64,000 nucleotides of DNA, taken from positions 6,882,001 to 6,946,000 of the forward strand of contig OZ005707.1 of the NCBI GenBank assembly GCA_963930775.1, written 5' to 3'. The notes under the pieces were generated by a model that saw only the letters and a list, made by a program, of their open reading frames with translations, made no database searches and had not been told where the DNA came from. This stretch comes from Cliona cf. orientalis. Lineage: Eukaryota > Porifera > Demospongiae > Clionaida > Clionaidae. Of the stretch, positions 1,827-64,000 are shown piece by piece. Made by a program: the position numbers and the translations under genes. How positions within the stretch are numbered: position 1 is the first letter of the stretch; every line of letters starts with the position of its first letter.

Positions 1827-4800
1827 CGTCCCTCCCTCAGTAGTTTTGACATTGATCTCAACAGTGGCGTCCTAGTGTTGGAGTTCAATGAGACCATAGA
1901 TGTTGCAACAATTGCTCTGTCTCAGTTTACACTCCAAAGCATACCATTCTTCACCAGTATCAATGCCTATCTCCAAAGCACACCCATTCCTACTGTTGAT
2001 ACGGCCATCCTCAATCTGACACTGAGTCGAGCTGACCTGAACGAGATCAAGAGGCTTCCTGTGTGCACTTCACAGGAGGACTGCTTCCTCTCTTTCCCCA
2101 CCACTGCTCTCAATGATACATCTGGTAATCGTGTTGTACCCATCAACACAGATCAAGCGTATCGTGTGAGGACTTTCGTACCTGATACTACCGACCCTGA
2201 GCTTGAAAGCTTCGTGCTTTTCGACAGAGATGAGGGGTATATGGTGCTAAGCTTCTCTGAGACAGTCAACGTAGCCACCCTTCAACCGAGTGATGCTCGC
2301 CTGCAGTCTAGGTCTGGTCCTCCGTCTGTGGTACGCTATACCTTTACCGATGGATTTGTTGCCGATGAGAACACGGATGTTGTCAGAATCAACTTCACTG
2401 TCAATGACCTGAATGAAATTAAGGCTACAGGTATCCTATGTACCTTTGATACAGTCTGTTATATTCGATTCAGCCCTCTGTTTGTGATGGATATGGCTGG
2501 AAACAATATCACTGCTATTGACGATGGCCCCTTTAATCTGGCTCACAATCCAAGTGCATTTGTACCAGATACCACCCCTCCCAAGCTGATGAACTTTGAC
2601 CTCGATCTGACGGCTGGGCAAGTCATTCTGTCATTCGATGAGACAGTGAGCACTGGTACTATTCAGACAGATGAAATCACACTGACAAATGCCTTCAATT
2701 CCACCCAGTCATTCACCTTGCTTCGTACCAGGGCAACTAACACAGCAGTGGATGCTCCAGTTATCAGCTTTGATCTCCAGGCATCAGATATTATTGCGAT
2801 CCAAGCAAATATTGAGCTTGCTACTGGTCCTGATAATACCTTCATAACCTTCACTAGTGACATGATCACTGATACAGCCAGTACTCCAAATGATGTAATG
2901 CCTGCAGTTGATGGATCCAATCCTATCCAAGTTAACATCTACACTCCAGATACTGTTTCTCCGGAGCTATCATCATTCACACAGCTCGACATGAACAATG
3001 AAAACATCAGGCTCATGTTCAATGAGCCAATGAATGAGACCAGAATCAACTTCAATGGCATTACTCTCTGCTCCAATCCAGCTTGTGCTACCGACTATTC
3101 CCTCAATGGAGGAGAAAATGTCCGCTTTATTGATACCTTCAGGCAGGTGATCCACATTGACCTCATACCAGAAGATATCCGTGGTATTAAGCTCCTCTTT
3201 CCAATGCTGGCCACCTCTCCGATGAACAGCTTTGTGAGAGTAGCCGCTGGGAGCTTCTTTGATACCGCAGGCAATCCCAATATGGCCACTCCACCCGGTA
3301 TAGCAGAGCAAGTGGATCCAAATAACTACAGAGGTGACACCACAAGCCCTAGTCTACTCAGCTTTCAATTGGATATCAATTCTGGCATACTCAACCTCAC
3401 ATTCAATGATGTGATAGATGTGATGACTGGGCAGTATATGTTCATTTCTCTTCAGAATGAGGAGACGAGAGTTCCAACTACTGAGGTTGTCACACTGACA
3501 AATGCAAACCCTATCAGTGGTAATGACTACTCCATCCAAGTGCGTATTGTTGAAGGTGACCTGAATAACCTCAAAGCTGTCCCCAGTCTAGCTACCAATG
3601 TGAATGATACGTACATCACGGTTGGTTCCAATGCCTTTGAAGATGTAGCTGGGAGTTTTCTACTGCCAGTGACTGAGTCCAATGCCTTGCAAGCTTCATT
3701 TGTTGGTCCTGACACAGAAAGGCCTGAGCTTGTCTCCTTCACATTCAATGCCAGCACAGGGGTTCTCACTCTCATGTTTGATGAAGTTGTCAATGTCTCT
3801 GGAATTCTTCCTAGTGGATTTGTGTTGCAGAATTCTGCTTCAGTCCTTTCTCGCTCACGAAGACTATCTGGAGGCACTCCATCCACCACGAGCCCCTCAG
3901 CACTCTTTGATTACACACTGGCTAGAGAGGACATCAATTTCATCAAACTTTACACAGATTTTGGAACATCCGTGAATGATACCTACTTATCTGTTGAGGA
4001 GACAGCTGTGAGGGACATGGCTGGCAATCTTCTTGTTGGAATCCCCAGTTCAAGAGCTCTCCAGGCAATGGACCATTATCCAGATAATGTTCCCCCAGTG
4101 CTAGAATCCTACACCTTTGACATAAACCGTGGTGCTCTCACTCTGTCATTTTCTGAGACTATCAATATCACTACACTAGACCCTGGCCAGTTTTTCATTC
4201 AGTCAGTTCAGGCTGCTTCTATAAACCAATACTACCAACTGAACGATAGCTATACTTCCGACCAGTCATCGGACGTGGTCGAAATTCTAGTTGGTCCAAA
4301 TGATTTGAACAATCTTAAGGCTAGTGATGTCATTGCCAAATCTGCTGGTTCCACATACCTCCGATTTCTACCCCAGGCTGTCTATGATCAGAACAATAAT
4401 CCAACCGCCGGACTCTCTAACGGTATGGCCCAACTTGCTGCTGTCTACATCAACGATAGCACTGCACCAACTCTGAACCGGTTTTCTATTGAAATGGGTC
4501 CTGGCATACTCAGTCTCACCTTTTCTGAGACAGTGGACGTCAATACGTTCAATCCCACCACATTCTTGCTGATGAACACACCAAATGTTGGTAGTGCAGC
4601 CTTCCAGAGGCAGCTAACTGGAGGAACTGTTTTGAGTGGAAATGGTCCAGTCATCGACCTCCAGCTCAACTATGAGGATGTGAATTTCATCAAGGCTGAG
4701 ACCATGTTCTTCACCAGTGAAATCAACTCGTACATTTCCATCACTCCTGCTGCCGTGAGTGACACACAAGGCAATCCTGTGGTAGCTATTGCCAACACAT

Positions 4801-7800
4801 CCGGTCTCCAGGCTGGATTCTTCACGAGGGATGACATACGACCTACCCTGTTCAACTATACGCTGGATTTGAATGCAAATTCTCTCATTTTGACATTCTC
4901 TGAGACTGTCATTGCCAGCTCCCTTGTGCCCATGTCTATCACCCTCCTTTCACAGCCATCACTCAATCCCACTTCCATGTACACACTGCTTGGAGCAGAA
5001 AGAGTAGCTCCACCCATTTCTGCTATGCTTACCTTGCAGTTTCTGCTAGAGGACACCAATGCTTTGAAACAGGACTTGAATCTAGGCACCTCAGTTATGA
5101 CTACCTATCTCTCCCTGCTAGCTGATAGTGTATCAGATACTGCTGGCAATAACATCTCAGCCATAGCAGTCACTGATGCCCTTCAAGCAATGGATGTGAT
5201 CGCTGACATGACTCCGCCAATGTTGGAATCTTTTGGACTAGACATGCCCACAGCAGGTCCACCAGTGATACTTGTGCTTGAATTCTCTGAGACTGTCAAT
5301 GCTTCATCGCTTAGAGTTCAGTCCATCACGCTCCAAGACTCTATGTCTGGTGGTGGAGAAATGTTCACTTTGTCAAACAGCAGTGTTTTGATGATGAACT
5401 CCTTCAGATTGGAGATTACCATTGGAGATATGGATTTAGAGGCCATCAGAGCCAGACCTCCCTTGGGACAGAATATATCTACTACCTTCATTTCATTTCC
5501 TGAAGGAACAGTTCTCGACATGGCAGCTCAACGTTCCATTGCTATTGGTTCAGCTAGTGCTATGCCTGCAGATTTTGTGACCGCTGACTTCATCCCACCC
5601 CAGCTAAACTCTTTCACTCTTGACAATAACCTTGGATACCTTGTGCTCACATTCTCTGAAAGCGTTCAATCGTCAACCTTGTTTCTGAACCAAATCACTC
5701 TCAGTGATGGTTTGAGTGAGACACATACGCTCACCTCTACCAGTGTGTTTATGGGTGACAGTGATACAATCACTATCCCTCTGTCTTCTTTCGATCAGAA
5801 TACCATCAAAAATAGCAGCAGCTTAGGACTTGTTGCTAGTACAACCTTTATCTCCTTCCCAGCTGCTACAGTAGAGGACATAGCAGGTAATGATGTACTT
5901 GAAGCTGCATCGGAAATGGCTGGAGAGGTTGTTAATGACACCACTTCACCCATCATAACACAGTTTAACATCAACTTTGAACTCATGGAGATAACGCTGG
6001 TATTCAATGAACCTATTGATCCAAGCACACTGGATGTGAGGCACATTATACTACAGAATGAACGTGATCCATTCCCAGACTTGGAGTATTCACTTACTAA
6101 TGTGAATTCCATCTATACTTCAAACTTCAGCACTGTTCTGAGTTTCCAACTGAATGTATCCGATAGTAACGCTGTTCAGAGCATACTAGGACTAGCTACC
6201 AACAATTCCAATACATTCCTTGCTGTTGATCCAGAGGCCATCATGGATACCAGCGGCAACATGGTCTCAAGAGTATCTCCAACTCTTGCTCTTCCAGTCT
6301 CTACCTTTGAAGAGGACACTGTGCGGCCTCAGCTGGCATCCTTTGGGCTGGATCTCGATAGAAGAATTCTCAGGCTATCCTTTGCTGAGAGTGTGGATAC
6401 AACCACCCTGAATTTATCTCGGGTGGAGCTTCATGATTCTACCCGTGCGAATCAGTTTATGTTTCTGAGCAGTGTTCCAACTACTGGCCTCACTAGTGTT
6501 GTTGAGGTAGCTATTTCAAGCTCTGATTTCAATCAACTTGGAGAATTGCGTCTTTGTTTCTCTGGCTCAAACTGTTTCATTGACCTTGATGAGGGAGCTA
6601 TCTTTGATACTGTTGGTCTTGCGTCGCTGACAGCTGTTGACAGTCCTCTTGGTGATTTTGTGGCTGATTCACTTCCACCCAGAATTACAGAATTCACCAG
6701 CTTTGACAGTGGTACGGGAGTTATCAATCTAACCTTTTCTGAAACAATCGATTTTGCCACCCTCAACACCAGTACTATCATCCTTCAGTCCTTCTTTGAA
6801 ATGCCTGGTGAAAGCTTTAGGCTGTCTGGAGGCCTGACTGCCTCAGCTCCGACTGGATCCTTCATCACCATTGAACTATCCGACACTGATCTTTCTGCAA
6901 TAAAGGTGCTGACTGGACTGTGTACACTAAGGAGTAACTGTTACATCACAGCTGATTCAGCAACAATCTCTGATGTATCGGGCAATCCAAGCTCCGATAT
7001 CCCTGATGGACAGTCTGCACTTATTGTGAATTTCTTAAATGATGATGTTGTCAGTCCTAGCCTTGAATCGTTTGATTTTGATCTCGACTCTGGTGAACTC
7101 ACTCTGTATTTCAGTGAGCCTATTGATTCTACATCCCTTGATCTCAGTGGAATCACTCTCCAGTCTGACCAAGGCAACATAGGCTCTGTAGAATCCTATA
7201 GCCCACGGTCAGCTACAGTTGCGAGTCGTGATGACATGAGCACGCTGATTCTCACTCTCTCTAATGATGACCTCATTGCGATAAAGAGCTTTCCGTCTCT
7301 TGCCACCTCAATGATGACTACTCATCTTTCCATCAGTCCAAGTGCCATATCTGATGTGGCCACCAGGCCCAATCCTGTAGCACTTATACCTCCCATAGCT
7401 GCTTTTCCTGTCATAAACTACACTGCTGATACAAGTGGTGCACAGCTTCTTGAATTCTCACTCGACATCAACATGGATATTCTCAGCCTCACCTTCAATG
7501 AGCCAGTCAGTAAATCTTCACTTGTGTTCTCCAGTGTGATGCTGTACTCCACTAACTCTAGCAGCAATCCAGACGATTTCTCAATCTCTCTCACACAAGG
7601 CACAGTCCAAGACCCAGCCAATGATGCTTCAACAATTGTGACTATCTTCTTGGATAGATCGGATGTGGAGCAGATTAAGGGAAATTCCTCTATTGGAACC
7701 TCTGTCGATGACACATTCTTAGAACTGCTAGCTGGAGCAGTTCGAGATAGAGCTCTGAATGCTGCTGAAGTTGGCGATCGTGTACAAGCCTCCACTGTTG

Positions 7801-10800
7801 TCATGGATACTACAAGACCTGAGCTTGTCTCATACGTGTTCAACATTGAGATGGGAACTATGATGCTGACCTACAATGATGTAGTGGATGTCTCTACTTT
7901 CAGCCCAACCGCTTTCATAGTGCAGGATGGACTTTATCGCAATGCCTTCTACCAGCTAACACAGTCTACAGGTACCTCTAGTCCCAATGGCTACACCATC
8001 ACTGTTGATATTTCACCTCAGGATCTTCTCAACATCAAGCTAACACCCAGCCTAGCTAAGACCATCAATACCACTTATCTCACAATGCAAGCCTTTGCTA
8101 TTGATGACATTGCTGGAGTTGATGTATTGGCTATTACTGATGGTAAAGCCTTGCAGGCCAGTGTGTATGTGGCTGATAATGCTCCACCAGTTCTCAATAT
8201 GTTTGACCTTGATTTGAACACATCTGAGCTGATCTTGTACTTCAATGAGGCGATAAATTCTTCAACTCTTGACCTAGGACTTGCATCGGTTTATGGCAAC
8301 ATGCGAGGTACTGCTTCCTACCTTCTCAGCGACTACAGTAGTATTAGGATCAGCCCAGATGCAACCACTCTGTATGTGCGATTGAACAGAGAAGATTCCA
8401 ATGCCCTTAAAATGAGGAGTGATTTAGCGACAATGCGAAGTGATACCTTCCTTCGAATTGAAGCCAATTTCATTGCTGACCTTGCTGGAAACTCATTTTC
8501 TACACCACTCACAACCATGGCTGATAATTTCATTCCAGATGGCACTCCACCAGTTTTAGAGTCGTTTGCTGTCGATATGAACGCTGGTATACTTGTGCTC
8601 AACTTCTCTGAGGCTATACAGACCTTAAACCCATCTTCTTTCATACTTCAACCATTCATGAACTCCACTGCTGTCCCTGCACAGAGATACCAGCTGACGA
8701 CCTCCACCTTCACTCGCACGGGCTCAGACGATTTCATAATCAATCTCTCTGGTGTTGATCTAAATGCCATCAATGCTATCCCTCAACTTGCAAGCAGTAG
8801 GACTAGGACCCACCTTGCCTTTCAACCAACTGCTGCTATCGATTATAACTCCAATGCTATAGAGGAAGTTGATGATAATGGAATCAGAGCTCTGGCCTAT
8901 ATCAATGATATGACGCCACCAAATTTCATGGAATTCACTCTGGATCTGGACTCAAACACCCTATCATTGACTTTTGATGAGGTGGTGCGAGCTTCTTCGG
9001 TCTATTTCCCTGGAATTACTCTGCAAAGCACTGGAACTAATGCTGATAATTCATACACTCTGACTGATGGTGTCCCACCTCAAGCTGATTCCACTGTACT
9101 GAACCTAGTATTGAGTCTAGCTGATTTAGCTGCCCTCCAAATGCAGGAAGGGCTTGCCACACAAATAGGAAACACCTTCATTTCCATGAACTCCACAGCT
9201 GTATCAGATGTTAGTGGAAATGGTGGAAACTTTGTAAACGAGGTCAGTACAGCTATGGCTACCCGAACATCAGATCTCATTCCCGACACTTCATCACCTC
9301 GACTGCTCGATTTCAGTCTCAATCTAGCTGATATTACAGCTACTCTGATATTCTCTGAGTACGTGAATGTTGACAGCATCAACTTTGCCAATATACAGCT
9401 CCTAAGCAACATGGACCCAACAACAGCTGTTAGTGTGCCGCTAGCAAATTCACAAACTGTGTCCAATCAGACTAACAGTTCTGTTGTGATGATTCGGCTC
9501 AGCTCTGTTGACTTTCTCACTCTGCAGAGGATGCCCGCCATTGCAACAGCTATCTCCAACACCTTCATTCAGCTTGGTGATAACTCCTTGATTGATCTAG
9601 CAGGAAATATGTACAGACAACAACCACCTCTTCAAGCCACTGAAGTTCTACCAGACAATAGAGCTCCTGAGCTTGAAAGCTATTCACTGAATCTTGGACT
9701 AAGAAGGCTCATCCTTACTTTCTCTGAACCTGTCATGGCAGCTTCTACTGATGTGACTGCTCTTACCATACACGATAGTGCTTCTGGAGGAAATCCAAGG
9801 GGTCTCACAATGGATAGCACTGTGGTGGATTTCAGTTTCGACAACACTGAGGTATCGATTGGAATTGGAGCTGTAGATGACCTAAGACTGATGGCTGTCC
9901 CAGCAGCTACTACTGTTAACAACACCTTCATTTCATTCACTCAAATGCTAGTGACTGACTATAATTTCAATCCTGTTGTTCCCATTAGTACCACTTCTCC
10001 TCGACAAACTTCAGCTATTCAAGATGACACCTTACCTCCTTCTCTCCTTCAATTCTCCCTGGATCTCAATCTTGGACAGTTGGTGTTGGATTTCTCTGAG
10101 CGTGTCAACCTGGACACCTTCAACACAACAGACATCACACTACAGAGTGATCTTACATCCAATCCTGCCTCGAGAATCTCACTAAGTGGTGGTACACTTA
10201 CTCTGGAGGGAACCTCCAGAGTCATTCTTCAACTCCTAGATGCAGATCTCAACCAAATCAAACTGGATACTAACATTGCTACTGCCCTTCCCAATACTGT
10301 CATTGACCTACCAGAGACAGTTGTAGTGGATAGTTCGGGCACTCCTCTAGTACCAATCACAACTGCAGCCAGTGGCTTGATTCCTGATGAGTCTCCTCCA
10401 GCTCTGGTTGATTTCGACCTTGACCTTGATTCTGGTACCATCCATCTGCGATTTTCTGAGTTTGTGCGCACAGCAAGCTTTTCTGTGACTAGCCTCCAAC
10501 TTCAGGAAGCTCCTGGAGTTCCAAGCTTCACTGCTTCCTTCACCAATGGCACTTTTTCAGGTGATGAGACTGACATTATAACTGTGAATATCATCCCACA
10601 AGACCTAGATGTCATCAAGCTACAGGCATTGTGTGTCAGCAACACTACCTGCTATATGACTATTGGCGGTGGTGTTGTGCAGGATCTCTTTGGGAGAGCC
10701 AATCTTCCTCTTGTTAGCAATAATCCAGCTCCTGTTGATAGCTTTACACCAGATACAACCTCGCCAATGTTGGCATCTGTGCCACTGATCGACATAAACT

Positions 10801-52800: not shown

Positions 52801-55800
52801 TTGCAAATGGCTCTATATCTGATACCAATGGGTTTGATATTGCTGAAACAAGGCTTGTGAATGCTCTACAGGCTACTGAAGTCGTTCCTGATGAAACAAG
52901 TCCCATACTTTTGAACTACACCATTGATTTCGATGCTGGTATTTTGGTGCTCACATACGATGAGCCAATTGATGCCCAATCTGTTCAACCAGAGAATATC
53001 TATTTTGTGGATTCCAACAATGCATCAGCAGTAACTACTAGAGTTGCTCTATCATCTGTCACTGCTACTGCTCAGTTTAACATCCTAACATTGATTCTCA
53101 GCCCTGAAGACCTTGATCGTACAAAACCGTTTCAGTCGATAATCTGGGAGAAAATAGAAATTGAGACCAACACTACTGATGACAATAGCACAATGTCTGG
53201 TACCGTGATATATCTCAACAGCACCACCGTTGAAGTCATTTATGACACATGCATTTTTATAGTGCCAGGATTTGGTTCGGTCTCTGATGTATCTGGCAAT
53301 CTCCAAGAAAGATCATCTCCTTCAGCACCCCTGACTATCACTTTTGATGAAACACGTCCTGAGTTAATCATGTTCTACATTGATTTAACTAATGCCAACC
53401 TGAGCCTATTCTTTGATGAAGCTCCCGATCTTACTACTCTAGACTTAGTTCAGTTCACCCTGCAAAATTCTGACTCCACTTCATCAGTCAGCTTCTCTTT
53501 CTCTGGAGGGAGTGTGACGGTCCATCCCACTGTGACATCAGCTTTGATGGTACAGCTCAATACTCCGGATTTGAATGAGATCTACAGGCTTGAACTCTGC
53601 ACCAACCAAAGTGACTGCTACCTCCATTATACTGAAGCTCTGGTACAAGACTATGCTCGCAACCGCATTGTTGAAAGAAATGCTAGTAACAGTCTGCAAG
53701 TGAGCCAGTTCAATCCAGACTCAGTCACGCCAATGCTTGAGAGTTTTGTATTGTTTGACTTGGATACTGGTGTGCTAACGCTGAGCTTCAGTGAGACCAT
53801 CAGAGCTTCTTCTATCAGTCTAAATGGCTCTGTCTTACAATCATTTGATGTAAATCCTCGATCTCAGCTCATGTTGAGGGGAGGGACAACCACAAGTGAG
53901 AATGGCCTCCTCATTGAAGTTCAACTCCACCCAGATGATTTCACTGCCCTCAAATTAGACAATCGTCTCTGCACCTTCCTCACCAGCTGCTACCTCAATC
54001 TTGCTCAAGGCAGCTTCCTTGATATGGCAGAGAACCAACTGCAGCCAATCCTTGCGAGAGCCAATGATTTCATTGAAGATACCTCTGGACCTATCCTGAA
54101 TGAATTTGCATTGGATTTGAACTCGGGTGCTATTCGTCTGACATTCAATGAGCCTATTGAACCTAACTCCAGAGATTTCACTGCCATTACCCTGCAAGAT
54201 GCCCCCACTGCCAACGTCCAATACCAGCTGACAGGTGGCACTCTAACTAGCACTGCTAGAGACAGAATCCTTGAATTCACTCTCAACCAACGGGACCTTG
54301 CTAACATCAAGTCAATGAACAATCTTGCTTCTAGAATTGAGAACACCTACATAGTTGTCAGTGCTACGCTTGTGCGAGATGTGAGTGTGGCTGGTCTTTT
54401 CAACATTCCTCTGGTGAATGGCTTCAATGCCACTCGTGCTTCAGTATATGTGCAGGACATGATGCCAGCCACTTTGACCAGTTTTGCTGAACTGGATCTG
54501 AACGGAAACACCATTACGCTGAACTTTGACGAACCAGTGGCTATTGATTCAATCGACTATACTCAGTTCACTCTCCAGAGTATGTCCTCTGCTGCTGGTA
54601 TTCTTGTGCCTCTGACTGGAGGACAGGCCATGTATGGGCTGGATAGGACTGTGGTGATAATTCAACTCAACCGTCAAGATATTGTTAGTATCAAAGCCAA
54701 TCCAGGTATAGCAACAACCATGTCAAACACCTACATCAGTGCTAGTGCTACAGCCATTGAAGACCTGGCTGGAAACATGCTAGTAGCAGTACCAAGCTCA
54801 GCGGCTCGTCAGATTTCTCAGGTGCCACTTCTTGATAGGACACCACCCTCACTTGTTGATTTCTCTCTAGACATGGACCAAGGTGTGATCATGCTAACAT
54901 TCAATACAGTCGTTCGAGTGTCGTCCTTTGTGCCGAATCGTTTTGGCTTGCAAAGTGATGAGAGAGTTCTCCAGCCAGCAGACAGATACCAGCTTACCAC
55001 TCCTGCTAGCAGTGTGGTGACTGTGAATGATGGATATGAGGTTGAATTCAATCTCACAGTTGCTGATCTCCAAGCTCTTCAAGCCAATCCTAACTTGGCC
55101 ACTTCTCTCAATGATACTTATGCCTTCATGTCGAATACTGCTATATTTGGTGTTAATGGTTTCCAAGCAGTAGAGATATTCCAATCTAGTGCTCTGCAGG
55201 CCACTGAATACATACCTGATATGACTAGACCAATGATTAGTGAGTTCACCTTGGACATTGACTCCGGTACTCTCATTCTAACTTTCAGTGAAGTCATCAA
55301 CACTACTACCGTTGAACCTAGTGAAATTATCGTTCAGAATACTGCCAATGGTACAGGTCTCTTCCTGCAACTCATGGATGGATTTGTTACTCCAAGCACT
55401 CCTGCTCCAGTTGTGACCATTGAACTGCTATTTGATGACTTGGAAGCCTTGAAGACGATGATGAGTTTGGGAGTTAGTACAGCCACGACTTACCTAGCTG
55501 TTTCCAATGAGACTGCAGCCGATATGGCTGGTCTGCCTCTCACTGAGATAACAACTGATGCTGCTTTAATGGCTACAGTTCATTTTGAGGATCTCACAGC
55601 TCCTATGCTCACCAACTTCTCCCTGGATCTCAACACTGGCCTGCTGACGTTCACATTTGATGAGACAGTGAGTGCAAGTTCATTTAACCCCACCAGAATC
55701 ACCATCCAGAACAGAGAGAGTGCACCATCGACCAGCGTCACTCTTAGTGGTGGTAATTTGGCAGCAGGGAGTGTAGATGGCACTGAACTACGTGCTTTCC

Positions 55801-58800
55801 TTGTACCGTTTGACTACAATGTTCTGAACACTGATCCAACCATTGCCAGAAATCGTGATAATACTTTCATCAGTCTCACAGCTGGTGTATTTCGAGATAC
55901 CAACAATCGTCCAGCTGCAGCTATTCCACCTACTAATGCTCTCCAAGTTGGTGAATTCTTCCTGGACGGAACCAGGCCTATCCTGGTGGCATTTGATTTA
56001 GATATGAATGCTGGTACACTAGTACTTTCATTTAATGAGCTAGTGTCACCATCATCATTCATCAGCTCCTTCTTCACAATCCAGAGTGAGAATGCCACCA
56101 TGCCAGAGTTCTTCTATTCTCTGTCAGATGGAGTGTCACCAACCACAGCCAGCGATAATGAAACGCTCATTATTCAGCTCACCACTGAAGATTTCAATGC
56201 ACTCAGATCAGATCTCAATCTGGCTACTTCGGCTAATAACACATACTTGAGTGTGAGGTCTGGTGGTGTCACTGATGTGTTCCTCAACTTGCTTGAACCG
56301 ATTGAAACTGACGACCCACTGCAGGTCAACAACTACACACCAGATGTCACTAGACCCACCTTGAATGCTATCACTCTTGATCTCGATTCCAGCATCCTCA
56401 TACTAGACGTCTCAGAACCCATTAATCCAGACTCATTCGACCAAACTCAGATCACTTTCACCAACAGTGCTACAGCTCCAACTGTCAGCTACCCTCTCAC
56501 TGGAGGTGAACTGTCTATCAACAACACGGAGCTCACTCTACAGCTAAGTGATGAAGACATCTCCTTCCTGAAGCGTAACACCTCTCTCGCTAGCAACCCA
56601 ACCAACACGTTTGTTGTTATCACTCCATTTGTCTTCATGGATGGAGCTGGTAATTTGTTTGAAGGTATTCGTCCAGATATGCCCAGAAGCATCAACTTCT
56701 TTGCCGATGTCTCAGCTCCTGAGCTTTTCTCGTTCAGCTACGTTGCTCCAGGTGACAGAGCTGGAGTGGTCCTAGTGTTGGTATTCTCTGAAGTCATCGA
56801 TACCTCATCACTCACTGCAACCTCGTTCACATTCCAAGACGCAGCCACCTTTGCTGATGTCACGCAGAATTTCACTCTCACTGGTGGAGAATTTTCAACA
56901 GATGATGCCTCTATTGTCAATTTGAACATTACAGATGCAGACTACAGCAATATTCTATCACTGTCCCCCCTGGGGACCAGCATCAACTCCACTTTCTTGA
57001 CAGTATCCTCAGGAGCTGTGCTAGATCTCTTAGGTACTCAGCTCATTGCAATACCCAACACCAGAGCTCTCCAAGCCACGCAATACTCAGTAGATCTTGT
57101 CTCCCCAGAGGTTCTTGATTTCACATTTGACCTCAATAGAGGCCAAATCATCCTTACCTTCACTGAGGTTGTCAATGCTGGTTCTTACAATGCATCACAG
57201 TTCACAATACAAGCCAGTCCTAATGATACCGCCATCTCATACACACTCAGTGGAGGCACTGCTATGACTGATGGATTTAGACTAGTCATTTCTCTCTCGG
57301 GAACTGACCTTGATGAGCTTAATCGAAATCCTTCTCTTGCTACTGCTGAGAATAACACGTTCCTATCGCTGACTGTGTATGCCATTCAAGATGCTTCCAA
57401 TAACATGGTTGTTGAAGTACCCAGCAGTGATGCTCTCAGTGTTGATCAGTTCATTGAGGATTCGTCTGGACCAATCCTGAGATTCTTTGAGCTCAATCTT
57501 GACACACAGACTCTCTCCCTCAGCTTCTCTGAGACTCTAGACATCGCCAGCTTGAACCTCTCTGTGTTGACACTGCAAAATTCTCCATTCAATGCTACAG
57601 AGTCATTCACACTCACTGGTGGAGACTTTATCAATCTCAATGCTTCATATGTCAAAGTAAACCTCACAGATGAAGACTATCGAACTCTACAGACTCTCAC
57701 GGATCTGGGAATCTCAACAACTAACACATTCATCTCATTCCCATCAACTCTGGTCCGAGATGTCAATGGATTCTATGCCATGCCTATTTCTCCCGATGAT
57801 GCTATCCCAGCCAGGACCATTGGTGAAGACACCATGCCTCCAATGCTGCTTCGATTTAGCTTTGATATGAACACTGGTGTAATTGAGTTAACATTTGATG
57901 AAGTTGTGGATAGTGGTTCTTTCCGACCTGAAGCTCTCACACTCCAGAATGCAGCTGCTACAGCTGGAGCCAGCTATGTGCTCACTACAAATAGCTCTGT
58001 CTTTGGTCCAATATCTGAGGTACTCTCTGTACGGCTCAGTGGTGAAGATCTTGATATAGTGAAAGCCATGGCCATCTGCTTGGAGCAGTCAAACTGTTTC
58101 ATCTCCTTCACTGCTGCACTCGCCACTGACACATTCAATAACCCCGTGATTCCACGTATTGCCAACAATGGACTTCAGGCTGTGAGCCACACTAGAGACA
58201 CCATACCACCTGACCTCCTCACATTTGTTAGCTTTGACCTCAATCTGGCTCAATTTACTCTGGAATTCTCAGAGAGTGTCAACACATCGTCGGTAGATTT
58301 CACCGGTTTCATTATTCAGTCATTCCATACCAATGCTTTTGATACCATCACACTCTCGAGTGGTACAGCAACTGGTAATGCTCCAACTGTCACATTCGTT
58401 CTCTCTCTTGCTGACGCCATTTCTCTGAAGCAGAATCCCTTCCTCTGTGGAAGGCAGGGTACCTGCTATATCAGAATCAATTCCATAGCAATCGAAGACA
58501 TGTCTGGAAATGCTATTGTATCGATTCCTGATGGAGCCAGCTTGCCTGTAGAGAGCTACACTGGGGACAATCTATCACCAGTTCTTATGGATTTCGATCT
58601 CAATATCAACACTGGGTTCCTCAACCTGTCCTTTAATGAGATTGTTGATACACGTGTACTGATGCCAAATAGTCTTGTTCTTCGCTCTGATGGCTCACCA
58701 ACTGCGGCTAGTGAGTACAGACTGACAGGAGGTACTAGAATCTCAGACATCTTCAGTGATATGTTGATTATAGAACTCAGCTCTATGGACCTGAATGGGA

Positions 58801-61800
58801 TCAAGGCTACCACCTTTGCCAAGCAGAGAGCTGATACATTCATCTTGATCGAACCATCAGCTCTAACAGATCTCTCTCCAGCTTCCAACAGAGCCGCAAG
58901 AACCATCTTACAGGTTGATGACTACGTTGGTGACACCGTTGCCCCCCAGCTTCTCAGCTATGCCCTGGATTTGAATGAAAATGCTCTGATATTAAGCTTC
59001 AGTGAGCCCGTGATAGAGAATGAGATCACGCTTAGTGGAATATCTTTGGCCACCACAATGGCTGGTGCTAACAGCTACACTCTTACTGGAGGAACAGTGA
59101 CATCAACTCAACAGAGAACCATTGTGAACATTGCTCTGAATGCTGCTGACCTCATAGCCATCAAGTATGGCAGAGCCACACCTCCCTCAGCCAGTGATAC
59201 ATTCTTGTTTATTGCATCGAGCACTATTGAGGACACCTCAAGAATTGACTTACCAGCTATCTCTGGACTCCAAGCCATCGCTCCAAATATGTTCATTCAG
59301 GACACATCACGACTTGAACTAGTGGCATTCACTCTGGATATCTTCAGAGGTGAAATTGTACTAACTTTCAATGATGTCGTCAACAGCAGTACTTACACTC
59401 AGGCATTTTTCCGGCTACTTGGACAGCGAACAGGAAATCCACAAGTGAACTTCTTTGATACAAGCACTACAAGTCCCAATGGCTTGGAAATTGTTATAAA
59501 TCTTGGACCAAACTTCCGATCTACTCTGCAAGCTGCTGCAGGTGTTGGTACCAGCACTGATAACACCTTCATCGCCATCAGAAACGAACGTGGTATCTTG
59601 GGCTACAATGGAGAGTCAATTGTCCCGATCCCTGAAGACAATGGGCTGCAGGCTGCTGAGTTCATTGGTGGTGGAAATGGAACACAGCTCACCTCCTTCA
59701 CTCTAGACATGAATACGGGCCTCTTGGAAATGCAATTCAACCAAGTAGTGGAGGTAACTTCATACGATCCAACTCTGATAAGCATCCAGGATTCAACTGG
59801 AGAAGTCAATGTTACTCTGTCAGGAGGCACAGCTACTCTTGCCATGGGAGGCCTGCAAGTGAATGTAGACCTCTCAATGACTGATCTAGATGCTCTGAAT
59901 GCACAAGAAAGAGTTGCTATATCTGTCAGAGATACATACATTTTCCTCGTACCTGGTAGTTTCCAAGACAGCTTGGGTGGTGACGTATTTACTCCAGAGC
60001 CTGTCCAAGCCTCTGATGTCATACCAGACATCATTGCACCAACCCTAAATGACTACATACTTGACTTGAACACTGGTGAACTAGTATTGAATTTTAATGA
60101 GGTGATTCTGGCCAGTTCTATCAGACCATCATCTGCTACAATCCACAGTAATATGAATATCAATCTTCCGAGCAGCTCCACTAGGACTCTAACTGGAGGC
60201 ATGGTCACATCTGGAAACAACAGACGCCTCACCTTTGCCCTCAGTGCTGATGACTTAAACTTCCTGAATATTGATGATTCAATAGCTACAGCTGTTGTTG
60301 ATACCTACCTCACTCTCCTGGAGTCGTTTGCAACAGACGCATTTGGCAATAGAATCAATGCTGTGTCTGGGGAAAGGGCTCAGAGAATTGATAGGGACGT
60401 TACTGCGCCCCGGCTTAATCAGTTTGTCCTGGATCTTGACAGTAATATGCTCGTACTCACCTTTAGTGAAGTCATTGAAACCAACTCATTCCGACTCCAG
60501 CTTTTCGCAATCCAAAATTCAGCTACTAGCAATGCTGTGATGCAATCTCTTTCAAATTCAGTAGTGGCTTCAACTGTTGATTCAAACATCATCATCATAG
60601 ACATTCTTCCAATGGATTTATACCCCATCCAAGAGAACATTAACCTTGGAACAGGTATTGACAATACATTTATCAGTATTGGACGTATGGGAATAACGAG
60701 TGGTGCTACAGACAAAGCATCTCCTCCAAATCCCCTCACTGAAATCCTTCCAACTGCCGCTCTGCAGGCTTCTTCTGTCATTGAAGATCAGACCAGTCCA
60801 CGTCTGGAATCATTCTCACTCGCACTCTCTGATGGGAAACTCTTGCTGACATTCACAGAAATAGTCAACATTAGCTCAATTGATCTTGAAAGATTTATCT
60901 TCCAGAGTGCAGCCTCCTCTGCTAATGATTCAGCTGCTCTAAGCAATGATAGTCCAATTGCTACCACCAGAAATGCAGCTATTGTTGAAATAAATCTGAA
61001 CAGGGATGACTTTGATAAGATTCGGACCAACGTAAATATGGGAACTACAGTGGATGACTCCTTCCTGAATCTCACTCTTGGAGCTGTCTATGATATGAGT
61101 GGTAATTCCAATGCTGCTTCACATTCGGCTACCCAAGCCAACACTGTAACACCAGACACCTCTATACCTATGAGACTATCATTTGAGATCGACATGAGTC
61201 GTGGAGTTATCATTTTCTCCTACTCTGAGGCCATCAATGTGGATAGGTTTGATCCTACTAGCATTGTTCTGTTCAATAGCCGTATGTTTACACCATCCTT
61301 TTCTCTGACCTCGGCTAGCAGAGTGATCAGCCCTAGTGGCAGTACAGTGATTGTAGACATCAATGGTGACATCAATCCACTCAGAGAGGCCATGTCATTT
61401 GGTGGTGCAACCAACACCTTTCTCACTCTACGAAGTGGTGCACTAGTTGACTTTGCTAACAATCCAGCTGCTGGAATTACAATGCCCACCCCTCCAGATG
61501 TTTTCACTGCTGATGATGCAGGGCCTTTGCTGACTTCATTCGAGCTTGATCTTAACATAGGACGTCTAACTTTGAACTTTGCTGAGACAATTGTGGCGTC
61601 CACTTTCACCACTGCTCAGCTCATGCTGCAAAATGCTGCAAGAGATGCCATAGAATTTGTTGCCATCACTTCCACAACTTTCCAACGAGACAATAACTTG
61701 GCTTCTGTCATCATCACTCTCAACCCTCGAGATATCGACGAGCTCAACCTCAGACCAGAGCTGGCCACTGGTGTAGCTGATACCTTCATCTCTCTGAGTA

Positions 61801-64000
61801 ACCTCACAGTAGAGGATGTCCTTGGTAATGCTGCACAGGAAATCCCCATTGAAGATGCACAGCAGGTCACAGTGTACGTGAGGGATGAAATCAGACCAAA
61901 TGCCACTGCCTTCCAGATCGATCTCAACAACCTCACAGCCACCTTTATGTTTGATGAGGTCATTGATCCACTCTCAGTGAATATGACTTACCTCACAGTT
62001 CAAAATAGCCTTACTGCTCCCACGCTGACTTTCACTTTCAGTAGCTTCGAGTCTGCCCGTGCTGTTGGTAGAGCTGTCGTTATTGATCTCTCACAAAGAG
62101 ATGTAAATGGACTCAATGCACTCGACATTTGCACCATAATGAGTGATTGCTTTGCTGTTCTGAACACAGGCTTCATCACAGATGCTGCTGGTAATGATAT
62201 CTTCACCTCTGATGCTCTACCAGCCTCGGTGTTCACGACTGATATTCTAGCTCCTGCCTTTGAGAGATTCTTACTCATGGACATCGACTCAGGAATCATG
62301 ATTCTTGAGTTCACCGAGACCATTGATGCTGATTCTGTTCAACTGAACATGCTGAGACTGCAGAGCGACTCCCTTGGAGGCAACATGGTGACGCTCAGTG
62401 GTGGAGAGATAGTCAGTGGAAGCAGTAGCCAGCTAGAGATTCGTCTCCTTCAGAGCGATCTCGATGCTATCAAGCTTGATAACAATCTCTGTACCAGAAA
62501 TGCAGACTGCTATGTGAGGTTCCCATCCATGTTTGCAACCGATGCATTTGGAAATCAACTGCCTGCTGTAGCTAATGCCATCACTCCAAATTCCGACGAA
62601 TACCCATCCATGTATATCCGTGACAGCACTGGACCAGTTGTTGTTTCATTCAATCTTAATCTGGAGAACGGTCTACTCTACTTGTCCTTCAATGAAATCT
62701 ACCAAGAGCCAAGCTTTGTCGCTAGTCAGATAACCATTCAGGATGGTCCTTTTGCAACCACCTCTTATACGCTAATAGGAGGTACTGTTGTGACTTTCAA
62801 CAGCTCGGGACTAACTCTACAACTGGAAGACATTGACACAAGGAGAATCAAGGGCAACCCAGCTTTAGCTACATCTGCTACAAACACCTTCTTAGTCAAT
62901 ACAGCTACACTGGTGGTGGATATATTCAACAATCGAGCTGTTCCTAGAGTGGATGGAGTGAATGCTCTTCAAGTGACAGACTTTGAGGAGGACACAACTA
63001 ATCCGCAGTTCCGGACTTACAATCAGTTCAACAGGGAATCAGTCCAAATCACTCTTGAATTCACAGAGCCCATTGACGTTACAACCGTCAACTTCTCCCT
63101 CATTACCCTTCAGTCTACCCAATCTGGTGTCGGTGGAGTCACTCTCCAACTGTCACCTGGTCGGGCGGAGCTAATGGACTCTGACCCACGATTCCTTGTT
63201 ATTACACTATCTCTAGATGACCAATTTGCTATCAAAAACATGACTATCGGTATGCTGGCAGTGAGCATGAGCACATCTTACCTTATATTTGATCGTGGTG
63301 CATTCACAGACACAGCAGGAAACGTCGCTGATGGTATATCAACTGCTATACAGCCAATACTGTTCATTGATGACACCTTTGGTCCAAGACTAGCTGGATT
63401 TGAACTGAATATGGAGGATGCTATTCTCCTGCTCACATATGATGATGTAATTCGACCAAGAGAGTACCAATTCTCTGGTATTGCATTCCAAAACAGCCCC
63501 TTGCTCCCAACTCAGAGGTACCAGCTCACTGGCGGACAATCTGTTTCGACAGAGCGCCTTGGATTTATCATCAACACCACAATTACACCTCAAGATCTGC
63601 TACAGTTGAAATATCGCATTGGTCTAGCCACTGGTATTGAAGATACCTTCATATCTGCCGGTACTCGTGTAACACAGAGTGCTAGTGGTAGTAATGTTGT
63701 GGCCACTCTCTCACCAGCTATTCAAGCTACGGGCTTTATCCTTGATCAAACACCACCCTTAGTGTCAGCATTTAGTGTCAATCTGACAACAGAGATTCTC
63801 AGTGTTGTTGCTGATGAACCACTGGACCCTGCCTCATTCGATCCCACAGGAGTTGTGCTGCAAAATTCAGCAAACAGCACTGGCTTGGATATTATGAGTG
63901 TGAGACTCTCAGGTGGTGTGGCTCGACAAGCAACAAATTCCATCTTCCAACTTGATGTTCAGCTCTCCAACTTGGATCTCAATCAGCTGAAGCAGATGGT
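1..64000 (+). CDS. Giant tandem Ig-like repeat protein, internal fragment open at both ends
   Basis: The frame with codons starting at multiples of 3 (first complete codon at 3, last at 63996) has no stop codon across the window, giving 21,332 codons. No start or stop lies inside, so signal peptide, membrane anchor and C-terminal domains cannot be judged. The protein consists only of about 124-residue beta-rich units separated by a short PDTT-type junction; no enzyme motif, kinase, lectin or EGF domain was seen. Recurring order within a unit (residue numbers approximate): xPxLxxF 1-7, LDLN-x-G 9-14, LTFSE 18-22, ITLQ around 38, YxLTGG around 52, DLNxIK around 72, LATS around 81, NTYLS around 87, DxAGN around 100. 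The motifs resemble bacterial Ig-like (Big_5/SwmB) domains, which suggests an extracellular adhesive or structural filament; this is inference. Base use (CpG-poor, AGA/AGG arginines) looks animal-like. I do not recognise the gene. Confidence 0.93.
1827..2576 (+). repeat. Cysteine-pair units A0-A1 of super-repeat 1
   Basis: A0 has Cys at 2064 and 2082 (CTSQEDC) and A1 at 2439 and 2457 (CTFDTVC), both CX5C. They replace the Ala of LAT and the Thr of NTYL, so a disulfide closing this loop is likely. A1 also has the longer hairpin FVLFDRDEG. Confidence 0.88.
5214..5594 (+). repeat. Long-hairpin unit A9 of super-repeat 1
   Basis: The first hairpin is lengthened (DMPTAGPPV before the LEFSE strand). 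The helix-like DLNxIK region reads EAIRARPPLG instead of the standard LATS loop. The same combination recurs every 23 units. Confidence 0.8.
6324..7052 (+). repeat. Cysteine-pair units B0-B1 of super-repeat 1
   Basis: B0 has Cys at 6555 and 6573 (CFSGSNC) and B1 at 6921 and 6939 (CTLRSNC). B1 has the longer hairpin FTSFDSGTG. These units sit 12 units after the A0-A1 pair. Confidence 0.88.
7815..8183 (+). repeat. Hinge-type unit B4 of super-repeat 1
   Basis: The strand reads LTYND (Asp for Glu). The middle has SSPNGY and the end reads TMQAF, then DVLAITDGKALQ, replacing the usual AGN-type end. This is the only B4 copy that keeps the junction Pro (RPEL). Confidence 0.85.
10395..11153 (+). repeat. 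Cysteine-pair units A0-A1 of super-repeat 2
   Basis: A0 has Cys at 10632 and 10650 (CVSNTTC, with an N-glycosylation sequon NTT between the cysteines). A1 has Cys at 11007 and 11025 (CISQSTC) and the longer hairpin VPLIDINSG. They lie 11 units after the previous pair. Confidence 0.88.
13734..14105 (+). repeat. Long-hairpin unit A9 of super-repeat 2
   Basis: The lengthened hairpin reads MTNGTEPME before LLRFSE; the loop reads AIQARAPLATF. Confidence 0.8.
14829..15566 (+). repeat. Cysteine-pair units B0-B1 of super-repeat 2
   Basis: B0 has Cys at 15057 and 15075 (CLVSTSC) and B1 at 15435 and 15453 (CNIRAHC). B1 has the longer hairpin FQEFNLLTG and ends with the FPGRVV tail typical of this position. 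Confidence 0.88.
16311..16694 (+). repeat. Hinge-type unit B4 of super-repeat 2
   Basis: The start reads RAEL (Ala for the junction Pro) and the strand LTFND. The end has TMQAY and DVLAITNGNALQ. The following unit B5 also has Asp (ITFSD). Confidence 0.85.
18930..19679 (+). repeat. Cysteine-pair units A0-A1 of super-repeat 3
   Basis: A0 has Cys at 19164 and 19182 (CTTMDNC). A1 has Cys at 19539 and 19557 (CFGAFSC, followed by Trp) and the longer hairpin FTSFDLDAG. Confidence 0.88.
22341..22730 (+). repeat. Long-hairpin unit A9 of super-repeat 3
   Basis: The lengthened hairpin reads LDEASVPPV before LILQFSE; the loop reads AIQERAPLGRS. At 390 bases it is among the longer units. Confidence 0.8.
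23463..24203 (+). repeat. Cysteine-pair units B0-B1 of super-repeat 3; B0 is CX7C
   Basis: B0 has Cys at 23703 and 23727 with seven residues between (CTHDATRNC), two more than usual. B1 has Cys at 24072 and 24090 (CTYRGNC) and the longer hairpin FAEINLQTG. Super-repeat 4 shares both peculiarities. Confidence 0.88.
24945..25319 (+). repeat. Hinge-type unit B4 of super-repeat 3
   Basis: The start reads RLSL (Leu for Pro) and the strand LTFDD. The middle has ASPNGY and the end TMQAS and DVLAITDGKGL. B5 follows with LTFND. Confidence 0.85.
26814..27158 (+). repeat. Shortest unit, B9 of super-repeat 3
   Basis: At 345 bases (115 residues) this is the shortest complete unit. The start and LTFNE strand are normal. 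The DLNxIK and LATS segments cannot be recognised, and a Gly-rich tail (MGGTGG) precedes the next junction. The frame is intact, so this is divergence and not a break. Confidence 0.8.
27516..28289 (+). repeat. Cysteine-pair units A0-A1 of super-repeat 4
   Basis: A0 has Cys at 27765 and 27783 (CTSATNC) and A1 at 28143 and 28161 (CSGFQTC). A1 is one of the longest units (396 bases), with an extended tail before the next junction and the longer hairpin FVEIDFTNS. Confidence 0.88.
30936..31313 (+). repeat. Long-hairpin unit A9 of super-repeat 4
   Basis: The lengthened hairpin reads STIGTGLEL before VLYFSE; the loop reads EILRRPPLGQF. The next unit (31314) also has a slightly longer hairpin. Confidence 0.8.
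32070..32810 (+). repeat. Cysteine-pair units B0-B1 of super-repeat 4; B0 is CX7C
   Basis: B0 has Cys at 32307 and 32331 (CTSDMGGDC, seven residues between). B1 has Cys at 32679 and 32697, with the same CTYRGNC heptapeptide as super-repeat 3, and the longer hairpin FVSFNISSG. The B1 tail reads IPGRII. Confidence 0.88.
33537..33911 (+). repeat. Hinge-type unit B4 of super-repeat 4
   Basis: The start reads TLTL after a junction (GYVAKST) with no PDTT. The strand reads LTYSG, the only Gly at this position in the array. The end retains TMQAS and DVLAITDGKALQ. Confidence 0.85.
36144..36902 (+). repeat. Cysteine-pair units A0-A1 of super-repeat 5
   Basis: A0 has Cys at 36390 and 36408 (CTSHTDC) and A1 at 36762 and 36780 (CNSRITC). 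A1 has the longer hairpin FVSFDYNAG. Confidence 0.88.
37281..37661 (+). repeat. Aberrant unit A3 of super-repeat 5
   Basis: The junction is PPDT but the core Leu and Phe are missing, and the strand that is LTFSE in nearly every other unit reads ISAFEPLSITVD. From GITLQ onwards (YTLTGG, IKLNRDLGTS) the unit is ordinary. The frame is intact. It sits at the A3 position, which has the one-residue-longer hairpin in other copies (here VLDINAG). Confidence 0.8.
39147..39524 (+). repeat. Extra CX5C unit, A8 of super-repeat 5
   Basis: Cysteines at 39387 and 39405 (CTAQGNC) occupy the same LAT/TYL positions as in the marker units, but A8 in the other copies lacks them. The unit probably received the loop from a marker unit by gene conversion, or gained it independently. 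Confidence 0.8.
39525..39911 (+). repeat. Long-hairpin unit A9 of super-repeat 5
   Basis: The lengthened hairpin reads MGTDIPGPALTA before LTLHFNE; the loop reads MILRLPPILQT, keeping PP but not PLG. Confidence 0.8.
40647..41378 (+). repeat. Cysteine-pair units B0-B1 of super-repeat 5
   Basis: B0 has Cys at 40884 and 40902 (CDTQSTC) and B1 at 41250 and 41268 (CSLRGNC, close to the CTYRGNC of copies 3 and 4). B1 has the longer hairpin FVSFDLNNM and the EPGRIV tail. Confidence 0.88.
42135..42506 (+). repeat. Hinge-type unit B4 of super-repeat 5
   Basis: The start reads QAIA, with neither Pro nor Leu at the usual places, and the strand ITFSD. The end has LIMRAD, DDY and DVIAITNGNAL. B5 also lacks the Pro and has Asp. 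Confidence 0.85.
44694..45455 (+). repeat. Cysteine-pair units A0-A1 of super-repeat 6
   Basis: A0 has Cys at 44940 and 44958 (CLNESEC) and A1 at 45318 and 45336 (CFVFATC). A1 has the longer hairpin FELFDFNQG and Lys where Glu normally follows the LTF-type strand (LRFTK). Confidence 0.88.
48045..48416 (+). repeat. Long-hairpin unit A9 of super-repeat 6
   Basis: The lengthened hairpin reads KMDSSMLPLY before VVLYFDE; the loop reads IRDLSPLGQT. Confidence 0.8.
49158..49901 (+). repeat. Cysteine-pair units B0-B1 of super-repeat 6
   Basis: B0 has Cys at 49395 and 49413 (CTGGDDC) and B1 at 49770 and 49788 (CTTRATC). B1 has the longer hairpin FVSLNLETG and the FPGFIV tail. Confidence 0.88.
50652..51026 (+). 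repeat. Hinge-type unit B4 of super-repeat 6
   Basis: The start reads FATL after QDVSAVS, without Pro, and the strand LTFSD. SPNGH is in the middle; the end has LIMRAD, DDY and DVLSITDGKALQ, closest to super-repeat 5. Confidence 0.85.
52899..53354 (+). repeat. Longest unit, B10 of super-repeat 6, with insertion
   Basis: At 456 bases (152 residues) it exceeds the mean by about 28 residues. The extra part lies between the DLDR segment and VSDVSGN. It contains SIIWEKIEIE, three sequons (NTT, NST, NST) and a lone Cys at 53250. Frame and flanking units are intact. A retained in-frame intron is possible, but I see no convincing splice signals. Confidence 0.78.
53355..54086 (+). repeat. Cysteine-pair units A0-A1 of super-repeat 7
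   Basis: A0 has Cys at 53598 and 53616 (CTNQSDC) and A1 at 53970 and 53988 (CTFLTSC). The A1 hairpin FVLFDLDTG closely matches A1 of super-repeat 1 (FVLFDRDEG). Confidence 0.88.
56715..57101 (+). repeat. Long-hairpin unit A9 of super-repeat 7
   Basis: The lengthened hairpin reads VAPGDRAGV before VLVFSE; the loop reads ILSLSPLGTS. Confidence 0.8.
57837..58574 (+). repeat. Cysteine-pair units B0-B1 of super-repeat 7
   Basis: B0 has Cys at 58077 and 58095 (CLEQSNC) and B1 at 58446 and 58464 (CGRQGTC). B1 has the longer hairpin FVSFDLNLA. Confidence 0.88.
59310..59678 (+). repeat. Hinge-type unit B4 of super-repeat 7, diverged end
   Basis: The start reads RLEL (Leu for Pro), the strand LTFND, and TSPNG is in the middle. 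The end differs from the other copies: AIRNERG and IPEDNGLQ replace TMQA and DVLAIT. The next unit starts from a Gly-rich junction (GGGNGT) without Pro. Confidence 0.82.
61893..62630 (+). repeat. Cysteine-pair units A0-A1 of super-repeat 8
   Basis: A0 has Cys at 62130 and 62148 (CTIMSDC) and A1 at 62490 and 62508 (CTRNADC). A1 has the longer hairpin FLLMDIDSG. This is the last marker pair in the window and shows that the periodicity continues to the right edge. Confidence 0.88.
61893..64000 (+). repeat. Partial super-repeat 8 (A0-A5)
   Basis: Units start at 61893 (A0), 62250 (A1), 62631 (A2), 63000 (A3), 63381 (A4) and 63753 (A5, cut at the window end). The expected signatures are all present: cysteine pairs in A0 and A1, the longer hairpin in A3 (YNQFN) and Asp in A4 (LTYDD). 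A5 reads SVVADE, so the usual aromatic before the acidic turn is Ala. The array clearly continues beyond base 64000. Confidence 0.88.

Follow-up and report, generated by a model that had tools for sequence, protein, structure and literature searches.

The stretch of DNA analysed here (the window) comprises 64,000 nucleotides of contig OZ005707.1, referred to below as C19, from the sponge Cliona cf. orientalis, and is the central part of a predicted 125-kb exon encoding tandem Ig-like units. These units follow an exact 23-unit super-repeat, with seven complete copies in the window (1818 to 61883) and 14 in the whole exon (units 0-321); the final 13 units of the exon are out of register. Two five-domain nodes marked by Cys doublets recur in every copy. 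The coordinates of all features are listed in Table 1.

A unit HMM built from the giant's own units gave 333-335 matches in the stop-free stretch. The final set was fixed at 335 units by adding a divergent N-terminal unit by hand and retaining one weak unit (ORF residues ~33250-33316, 18.6 bits), without which the register seems shifted by one after unit 265. Mean spacing is 124.6 aa, and 170 units lie within the window. Mean unit-to-unit identity, corrected for row and column, was calculated for offsets 1 to 309, and over the whole exon ranks 1 to 13 of the 309 are exactly the 13 multiples of 23. The window alone gives 23, 46, 69, 92, 115 and 138 as its top six offsets. At offset 23, mean excess identity over the whole exon reaches 0.0418, compared with at most 0.0057 in 1000 permutations of unit order, and 168 of the 335 units have their best match in their own class modulo 23 (about 1 in 23 expected). 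In a FastTree tree of 322 units, position modulo 23 requires 171 steps (268.7 when shuffled, minimum 258). Clustering by neighbourhood, which the initial annotation had set against its proposed 23-domain period, is absent, as that label needs 262 steps (251 when shuffled, minimum 239). Neither of the two outcomes that the initial annotation had named as refuting the period was thus observed.

The markers on which the period was originally based agree with this register. All seven B4 (DVLAIT type) starts fall on phase 16 and all seven A9 starts on phase 9, each no more than 9 bases from the unit starts called here. The range of 8,535-8,661 bases given earlier for the copies in the window was recovered exactly (8568, 8535, 8586, 8628, 8550, 8661 and 8538 bases). 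As there are just 20 DNA-level self-matches in the giant, none longer than 82 bp, recent tandem duplication or assembly collapse was rejected.

Table 1. Features of the giant gene, the paralogous loci and other loci noted. Positions are window coordinates unless a contig is named.
Feature	Position	Strand	Markers or remarks
Central part of 125-kb stop-free exon	3-63998	+	tandem Ig-like units of ~124.6 aa
Super-repeat copy 3 of 14	1818-10385	+	Cys doublet A 1818-2567; D-type 3336-3710; phase 9 5205-5585; Cys doublet B 6315-7043; phase 16 7806-8174
Super-repeat copy 4 of 14	10386-18920	+	Cys doublet A 10386-11144; D-type 11886-12257; phase 9 13725-14096; Cys doublet B 14820-15557; phase 16 16302-16685
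Super-repeat copy 5 of 14	18921-27506	+	Cys doublet A 18921-19670; D-type 20448-20822; phase 9 22332-22721; Cys doublet B 23454-24194; phase 16 24936-25310
Super-repeat copy 6 of 14	27507-36134	+	Cys doublet A 27507-28280; D-type 29040-29423; phase 9 30927-31304; Cys doublet B 32061-32801; phase 16 33537-33902
Super-repeat copy 7 of 14	36135-44684	+	Cys doublet A 36135-36893; D-type 37653-38012; phase 9 39516-39902; Cys doublet B 40638-41372; phase 16 42126-42497
Super-repeat copy 8 of 14	44685-53345	+	Cys doublet A 44685-45446; D-type 46191-46547; phase 9 48036-48407; Cys doublet B 49149-49892; phase 16 50658-51017
Super-repeat copy 9 of 14	53346-61883	+	Cys doublet A 53346-54077; D-type 54834-55217; phase 9 56706-57092; Cys doublet B 57828-58565; phase 16 59301-59684
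Super-repeat copy 10 of 14, start only	61884-63998	+	full copy ends 70457; Cys doublet A 61884-62621; D-type 63372-63743
Two-unit tandem, structure predicted	51399-52142	+	pLDDT 96.5, pTM 0.87
Stop-free stretch	-15474 to 109622		41,699 codons
Signal-peptide-like exon	-16924 to -16840		85 nt; flank read by eye
Predicted giant exon	-15470 to 109622		last codon before stop ends 109622
Terminal half-domain of giant exon	about 109400-109622		first half of unit, profile 1-67
Tandem segmental duplication, gene 3' end	108424-117061		
Divergent neighbour	C19:6814455-6863168 (window -67545 to -18832)	-	single open stretch, 16,238 codons, 127 units
First half-domain of neighbour	C19 about 6862850-6863168		C-terminal half of unit, profile 64-122
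Third giant	C19:5926774-5976195	-	open stretches of 2257, 11159 and 2991 codons
Silicatein-like sequences	C12:3671718 and C12:3674575		opposite strands

Cysteine distribution also follows the register; Cys counts depend on unit boundaries and residue alignment is not needed. At least two Cys are present in all 56 units at phases 0, 1, 12 and 13 (units 0-321). Both occupy profile columns 85 and 91 in all these slots but two, the divergent unit 0 and unit 35, which leaves 54. At other phases, 20 of 266 units contain any Cys, and 12 of the 20 contain exactly two. Overall, 258 of the 335 units lack Cys and the number is even in 69 of the 77 that have it. The chance of filling the 56 slots from the 71 units with at least two Cys is ~10^-48, less a penalty of a few orders of magnitude because the four phases were chosen after inspection of the data. 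The doublets at phases 0/1 and 12/13 divide the 23-mer into 12 + 11 units, with a doublet opening each half. Further position-specific features are EPV, favoured at phases 3 and 15, and D, favoured at phases 4, 16 and 17, where E prevails in most units. The five-domain node consists of two Cys-pair domains, one plain domain, one of EPV type and one of Asp type. In the giant, which has 28 Cys doublets, nodes are separated by alternately 7 and 6 spacer domains, and two nodes with their spacers make up the super-repeat.

A tblastn search with 740 window residues returned 120 matches, all on C19, in the giant itself, a divergent neighbour and a third locus 0.9 Mb away. As 60 of the 177 candidate relatives in the genome were scored, additional paralogue copies are possible. 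The neighbour opens with a signal-peptide-like sequence followed by the C-terminal half of a unit. The third gene has three large exons separated by two GT-AG introns (read by eye), with a signal-peptide candidate as in the neighbour. A 23-unit period was not found in the neighbour, which has an 18-unit super-repeat instead. One mis-split 'unit' (index 96) was removed before counting, and for the whole gene the best offsets among 1-59 are 36, 18 and 54 (28.0, 23.6 and 18.4e-3; permutation maximum 14.6e-3), rising to 48-57e-3 within units 36-108, a range chosen after inspection. Cys doublets start at units 0, 24, 42, 60, 78 and 96, and extra Cys units are 10, 86, 95, 118, 121 and 126. No super-repeat was detected in the third gene, where the best offset (11.9e-3) is below the permutation maximum (15.4e-3).

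When the giant and the neighbour are placed in a shared register, they match at node positions +0, +1, +3 and +4 (z 3.1-7.6) and weakly at +2 (z 1.5-1.7), with z ≤1.1 past +4. A node profile trained on the giant's own nodes has its six best windows in the neighbour exactly at units 0, 24, 42, 60, 78 and 96, and 0 of 2000 permutations reach this sum. In the third gene the four best windows are 0, 17, 54 and 85, and again 0 of 2000 permutations reach the sum, by a slim margin (26.8 against a permutation maximum of 26.4) and with the number four chosen after looking. Before standardisation, the 95 % limit was passed by 27 of the 28 giant nodes, which are the training set (unit 69 fails), by four neighbour windows and by one third-gene window. 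Among the putative third-gene nodes, units 17-18 are without Cys and a single unit of the node at 85 contains it. The five-domain node thus appears to be common to all three giants, with differing numbers of spacers, though the support from the third gene is thin.

Domains in the node are on average better conserved than the others. Mean in-phase excess identity is 6.0 % at phases 0, 1, 3, 4, 12, 13, 15 and 16 and 2.0 % elsewhere, a contrast for which the phases had been chosen from these very data. Phase 16, the DVLAIT domain, is the best-kept class (13.2 %; with it omitted the node mean is ~5.0 %), and phase 9, a 'spacer', has an excess of 4.6 %, above those of node phases 0 (3.0 %) and 3 (3.9 %). 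One or more of the DNA-level self-matches seem to lie inside the phase-16 domain (position by hand), which may reflect DNA-level constraint or gene conversion.

From the constancy of unit number, the initial annotation had suggested selection either on length or on the order of domain types. Selection on copy length is not supported; across the 14 copies, length has an SD of 54 nt, compared with 53 nt for shuffled units, and 57 % of 5000 shuffles are equally tight or tighter. Copies thus vary in length as shuffled units do and no length control is apparent above the unit level. Unit length itself differs among phases beyond chance (variance 3.4, permutation maximum 2.2). The other half of the suggestion fared better: selection on the order of domain types, mainly at the nodes, is supported by the filled Cys slots, by the higher excess identity at the node phases and by the node order in the paralogues. 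A constant number of units would need no selection if unit DNA is too diverged to recombine.

This last point is part of a competing account, in which a 23-domain block was duplicated and drifted, so that the period is a historical residue without function and the diverged units no longer recombine. In-phase identity, at 27.8-35.5 %, is indeed hardly above the 27.4 % background seen out of phase, the in-phase signal is nearly nil at phases 7, 8, 19 and 22 (0.5-0.9 %), few and short DNA-level matches are left and copy lengths vary no differently from those of shuffled units. However, drift of this kind does not sit well with retention of Cys in 56 of 56 slots, with conservation biased to the node phases or with an identical node order in paralogues that have different spacings, and we regard a purely historical period as unlikely.

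Frame 3 of the window is open throughout (21,332 codons), and the full stop-free stretch was delimited after adding a 100 kb flank on each side. Over the same stretch and strand, the remaining two frames contain 2,550 and 3,733 stops. The N-terminus is predicted to be supplied by a hydrophobic, signal-peptide-like exon, MGRPFTTLGGPTPLYLSLVTLLVFVSSTS, which by reading joins the array exon in phase, using a phase-1 donor GTGAGT and an acceptor TTAG just before -15470 (intron ~1.4 kb). As predicted, the spliced giant would consist of this exon and a single exon of 125,096 nt, together encoding 41,726 residues. The longest unit spacing in the giant is 152 aa, leaving little space for introns in the array. 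The stop-free stretch on its own encodes 4.50 MDa with pI 4.05 and net charge -3346. It is lysine-poor (316 of 41,699 residues; arginine, by subtraction from K+R, 1,435). The big ORF yielded no anchor segment apart from one borderline hydrophobic stretch within a unit. The exon terminates mid-domain and an exon completing the last domain was not found in the ~54 kb searched downstream, bar a frame-broken tandem copy, so the C-terminus of the giant is uncertain. This copy belongs to a tandem segmental duplication in which the giant's last stretch and 3' flank (~1.5 kb) recur 3.8 kb downstream, 95 % identical and with the frame broken; beyond it are more repeats, 82-96 % identical. A topoisomerase II-like gene, recognised by eye only, lies downstream of the giant.

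The units are called Ig-like here and their fold is possibly S-layer-like. The structure model of two units (Table 1) used 110 window rows, and single-sequence prediction reached just pLDDT 34.9. Among the best 50 of 1504 Foldseek matches in the PDB, SbsC entries 2ra1 and 4uic have the top probability (1.00), with 4uj6 at 0.96 and a T6SS-complex chain at 0.97. By E-value the SbsC entries rank 10, 12 and 39, with generic antibody chains ahead, and they have TM-scores of 0.30-0.31 and 13-14 % identity; the TM-scores of all these chains are close to 0.3 or lower. Big_5 (PF13205) passed its cut-off in one of two stretches (25.4 vs 23.6 bits, one stretch of 2,400 aa), but there was no match at E≤0.01 in five window pieces, one of which spans that stretch. 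Of 43 single units, 10 matched at E≤1, all short of cut-off level (best 0.012), and a genome-wide Big_5 scan that was positive in 5 of 14 control genomes gave 0 matches here. As this sequence link is weak and inconsistent, the units were not filed as Big_5. Any resemblance to SbsC and Big_5 would lie in the Foldseek probabilities and in a single stretch over cut-off, and the giant differs from SbsC in being a eukaryotic gene with ~335 copies of the unit.

No other domain family was assigned. I-set, FnIII and kinase matches were absent from the five window pieces (E≤0.01) and from the 43 single units (E≤1), and Calx-beta was absent from the five pieces at E≤0.01. A sequence profile search of the PDB with the units gave nothing under E 0.15. 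NCBIfam searches of the 110 two-unit rows hit 15 families, none of them in more than 2 rows (best E 0.0011). In Pfam searches of window pieces, Big_8 scored 22.1 bits, below its 22.9 cut-off, and Glyco_hydro_5_C scored 26 bits against a 22-bit cut-off, yet no individual stretch passes alone; both identities were set aside as chance or fold-level resemblance.

Our preferred explanation, for which we judge the prospects to be about even, is that the giant is an acidic filament of the extracellular matrix, secreted and N-glycosylated, whose regularly placed nodes serve for docking or cross-linking, the spacers setting the distance. The array probably arose by nested duplication, from a unit to an ~11/12-mer, then a 23-mer and then 14 copies, after which the copies would have diverged, the nodes least. 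The ~335 tandem Ig-like domains would form an extended extracellular filament in which the node is the most constrained part, spacer domains determine the distance between nodes, and nodes may serve as sites for docking or lateral cross-linking. The Cys pairs would presumably form disulfides. Even spacing, Cys pairs and conservation at fixed positions, as in the titin C-zone (excerpt of PMC10665226), fit such a role, but nodes could be mechanical staples instead of docking sites. A broader version, which we consider unlikely, is that the three genes encode an extracellular molecular ruler, in which the nodes would set a periodic matrix lattice; they recur every 12/11 domains in the giant, for the most part at 18-domain intervals in the neighbour, and irregularly in the third gene. 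The giant ends in the first half of a domain and the neighbour starts in the second half, so that they might be joined at their ends through a domain completed between them.

A close parallel in organisation is titin, which carries a kinase domain. Titin belongs to muscle and combines Ig with FnIII domains, and conservation in its C-zone localises to two super-repeat positions, Ig in position 1 and FnIII in position 7 (PMC10665226, excerpted text); the gene has 364 exons (PMC12580133, excerpted text). The sponge giant shares with titin a giant Ig-fold chain, long super-repeats and conservation focused on few positions, to the extent that these are described in the same excerpt of PMC10665226. 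It differs in having one domain type, a predicted signal peptide, one giant exon, a 23-domain period with Cys doublets and no FnIII, I-set or kinase match within the window. It works like a titin super-repeat and is not a member of the titin family. A titin-like elastic tether, in which spacers are mechanically unfoldable springs and the Cys-pair doublets act as stops or mark points of attachment, as part of a tension element outside the cells in the body of the sponge, would be in keeping with the tandem Ig-like structure model, with the 258 Cys-free units and with the likeness of these super-repeats and their position-specific conservation to the C-zone, but the predicted signal peptide, sequons and acidity indicate an extracellular location and an anchoring domain was found at neither end. 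We consider such a tether quite unlikely.

Sponge aggregation factors, which consist of Calx-beta repeats and a Wreath domain, offer a different comparison. Like them, the giant is predicted to be secreted, acidic and sequon-rich, with 783 N-X-S/T sequons (566 +/- 18 in shuffled sequences), and sequons are enriched in all three giants. At its C-terminus the third gene has three TIG stretches (E 3.3e-19), together with a Calx-beta-like stretch. Unlike them, the giant has another array domain, is far larger and lacks Calx-beta in the window at the threshold used above. The chain might then be a proteoglycan-like core for adhesion or aggregation that chiefly shows glycans and binds calcium, with the period secondary. 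Strong acidity and sequon enrichment would suit this, as would the SGSG motifs of the third gene (24, in SGSG-rich inserts) and the neighbour (12), but the big ORF has 0 and the Calx-beta-like match (23.5 bits) is under the 27-bit Pfam cut-off, and we regard a core of this type as quite unlikely. An assembly artefact, contamination or misplaced bacterial gene, to which the extraordinary 125-kb exon and the SbsC matches (in the best 50 of 1504) might point, is extremely improbable, given copies too diverged for assembly duplicates, Wnt matches on the same 7.2-Mb contig, the two GT-AG introns (by eye) of the third paralogue, no relative in plasmids or phages (740-aa query) and 0 confirmed of 100 pattern matches in GTDB genomes (248-aa query, which reaches close relatives only).

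The secreted filament with spaced nodes remains the explanation we favour. In size class the giant, at 4.50 MDa, resembles PKZILLA-1 of Prymnesium parvum, given as 4.7 MDa (PMC12194139, excerpted text), but PKZILLA-1 is a polyketide synthase, and the sponge protein is an Ig-like chain in which no enzyme domain was recognised. A limited open-access literature search found no description of such a sponge protein among the matches listed. If expressed as read, the 41,726 residues would make it, to our knowledge and within that limited search, the largest predicted animal protein. If the reading is true, titin-style long super-repeats with position-specific markers also arose outside muscle, in a predicted secreted sponge protein. 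The Cys pattern predicts a testable matrix filament of micrometre length with a 23-domain period of roughly 90-105 nm, assuming 4-4.5 nm per domain. The gene also raises the question of how a cell transcribes, translates and folds the product of a 125-kb exon.

The genome comprises 217 Mb in 149 contigs, and its Wnt and silicatein-like matches point to a sponge. Wnt matches were found at three places in the genome, some of them on the contig carrying the giant. Innexin was absent from the scan, a weak result as the control matched in no genome. A motif that we take to be that of silicatein matches three places, with Ser at the active-site position in two. Two silicatein-like sequences lie ~3 kb apart (Table 1), and one silicatein-like sequence, compared with the PDB, matched silicatein alpha (6zq3) best (E 3.7e-25), ahead of cathepsin L (3.8e-19).
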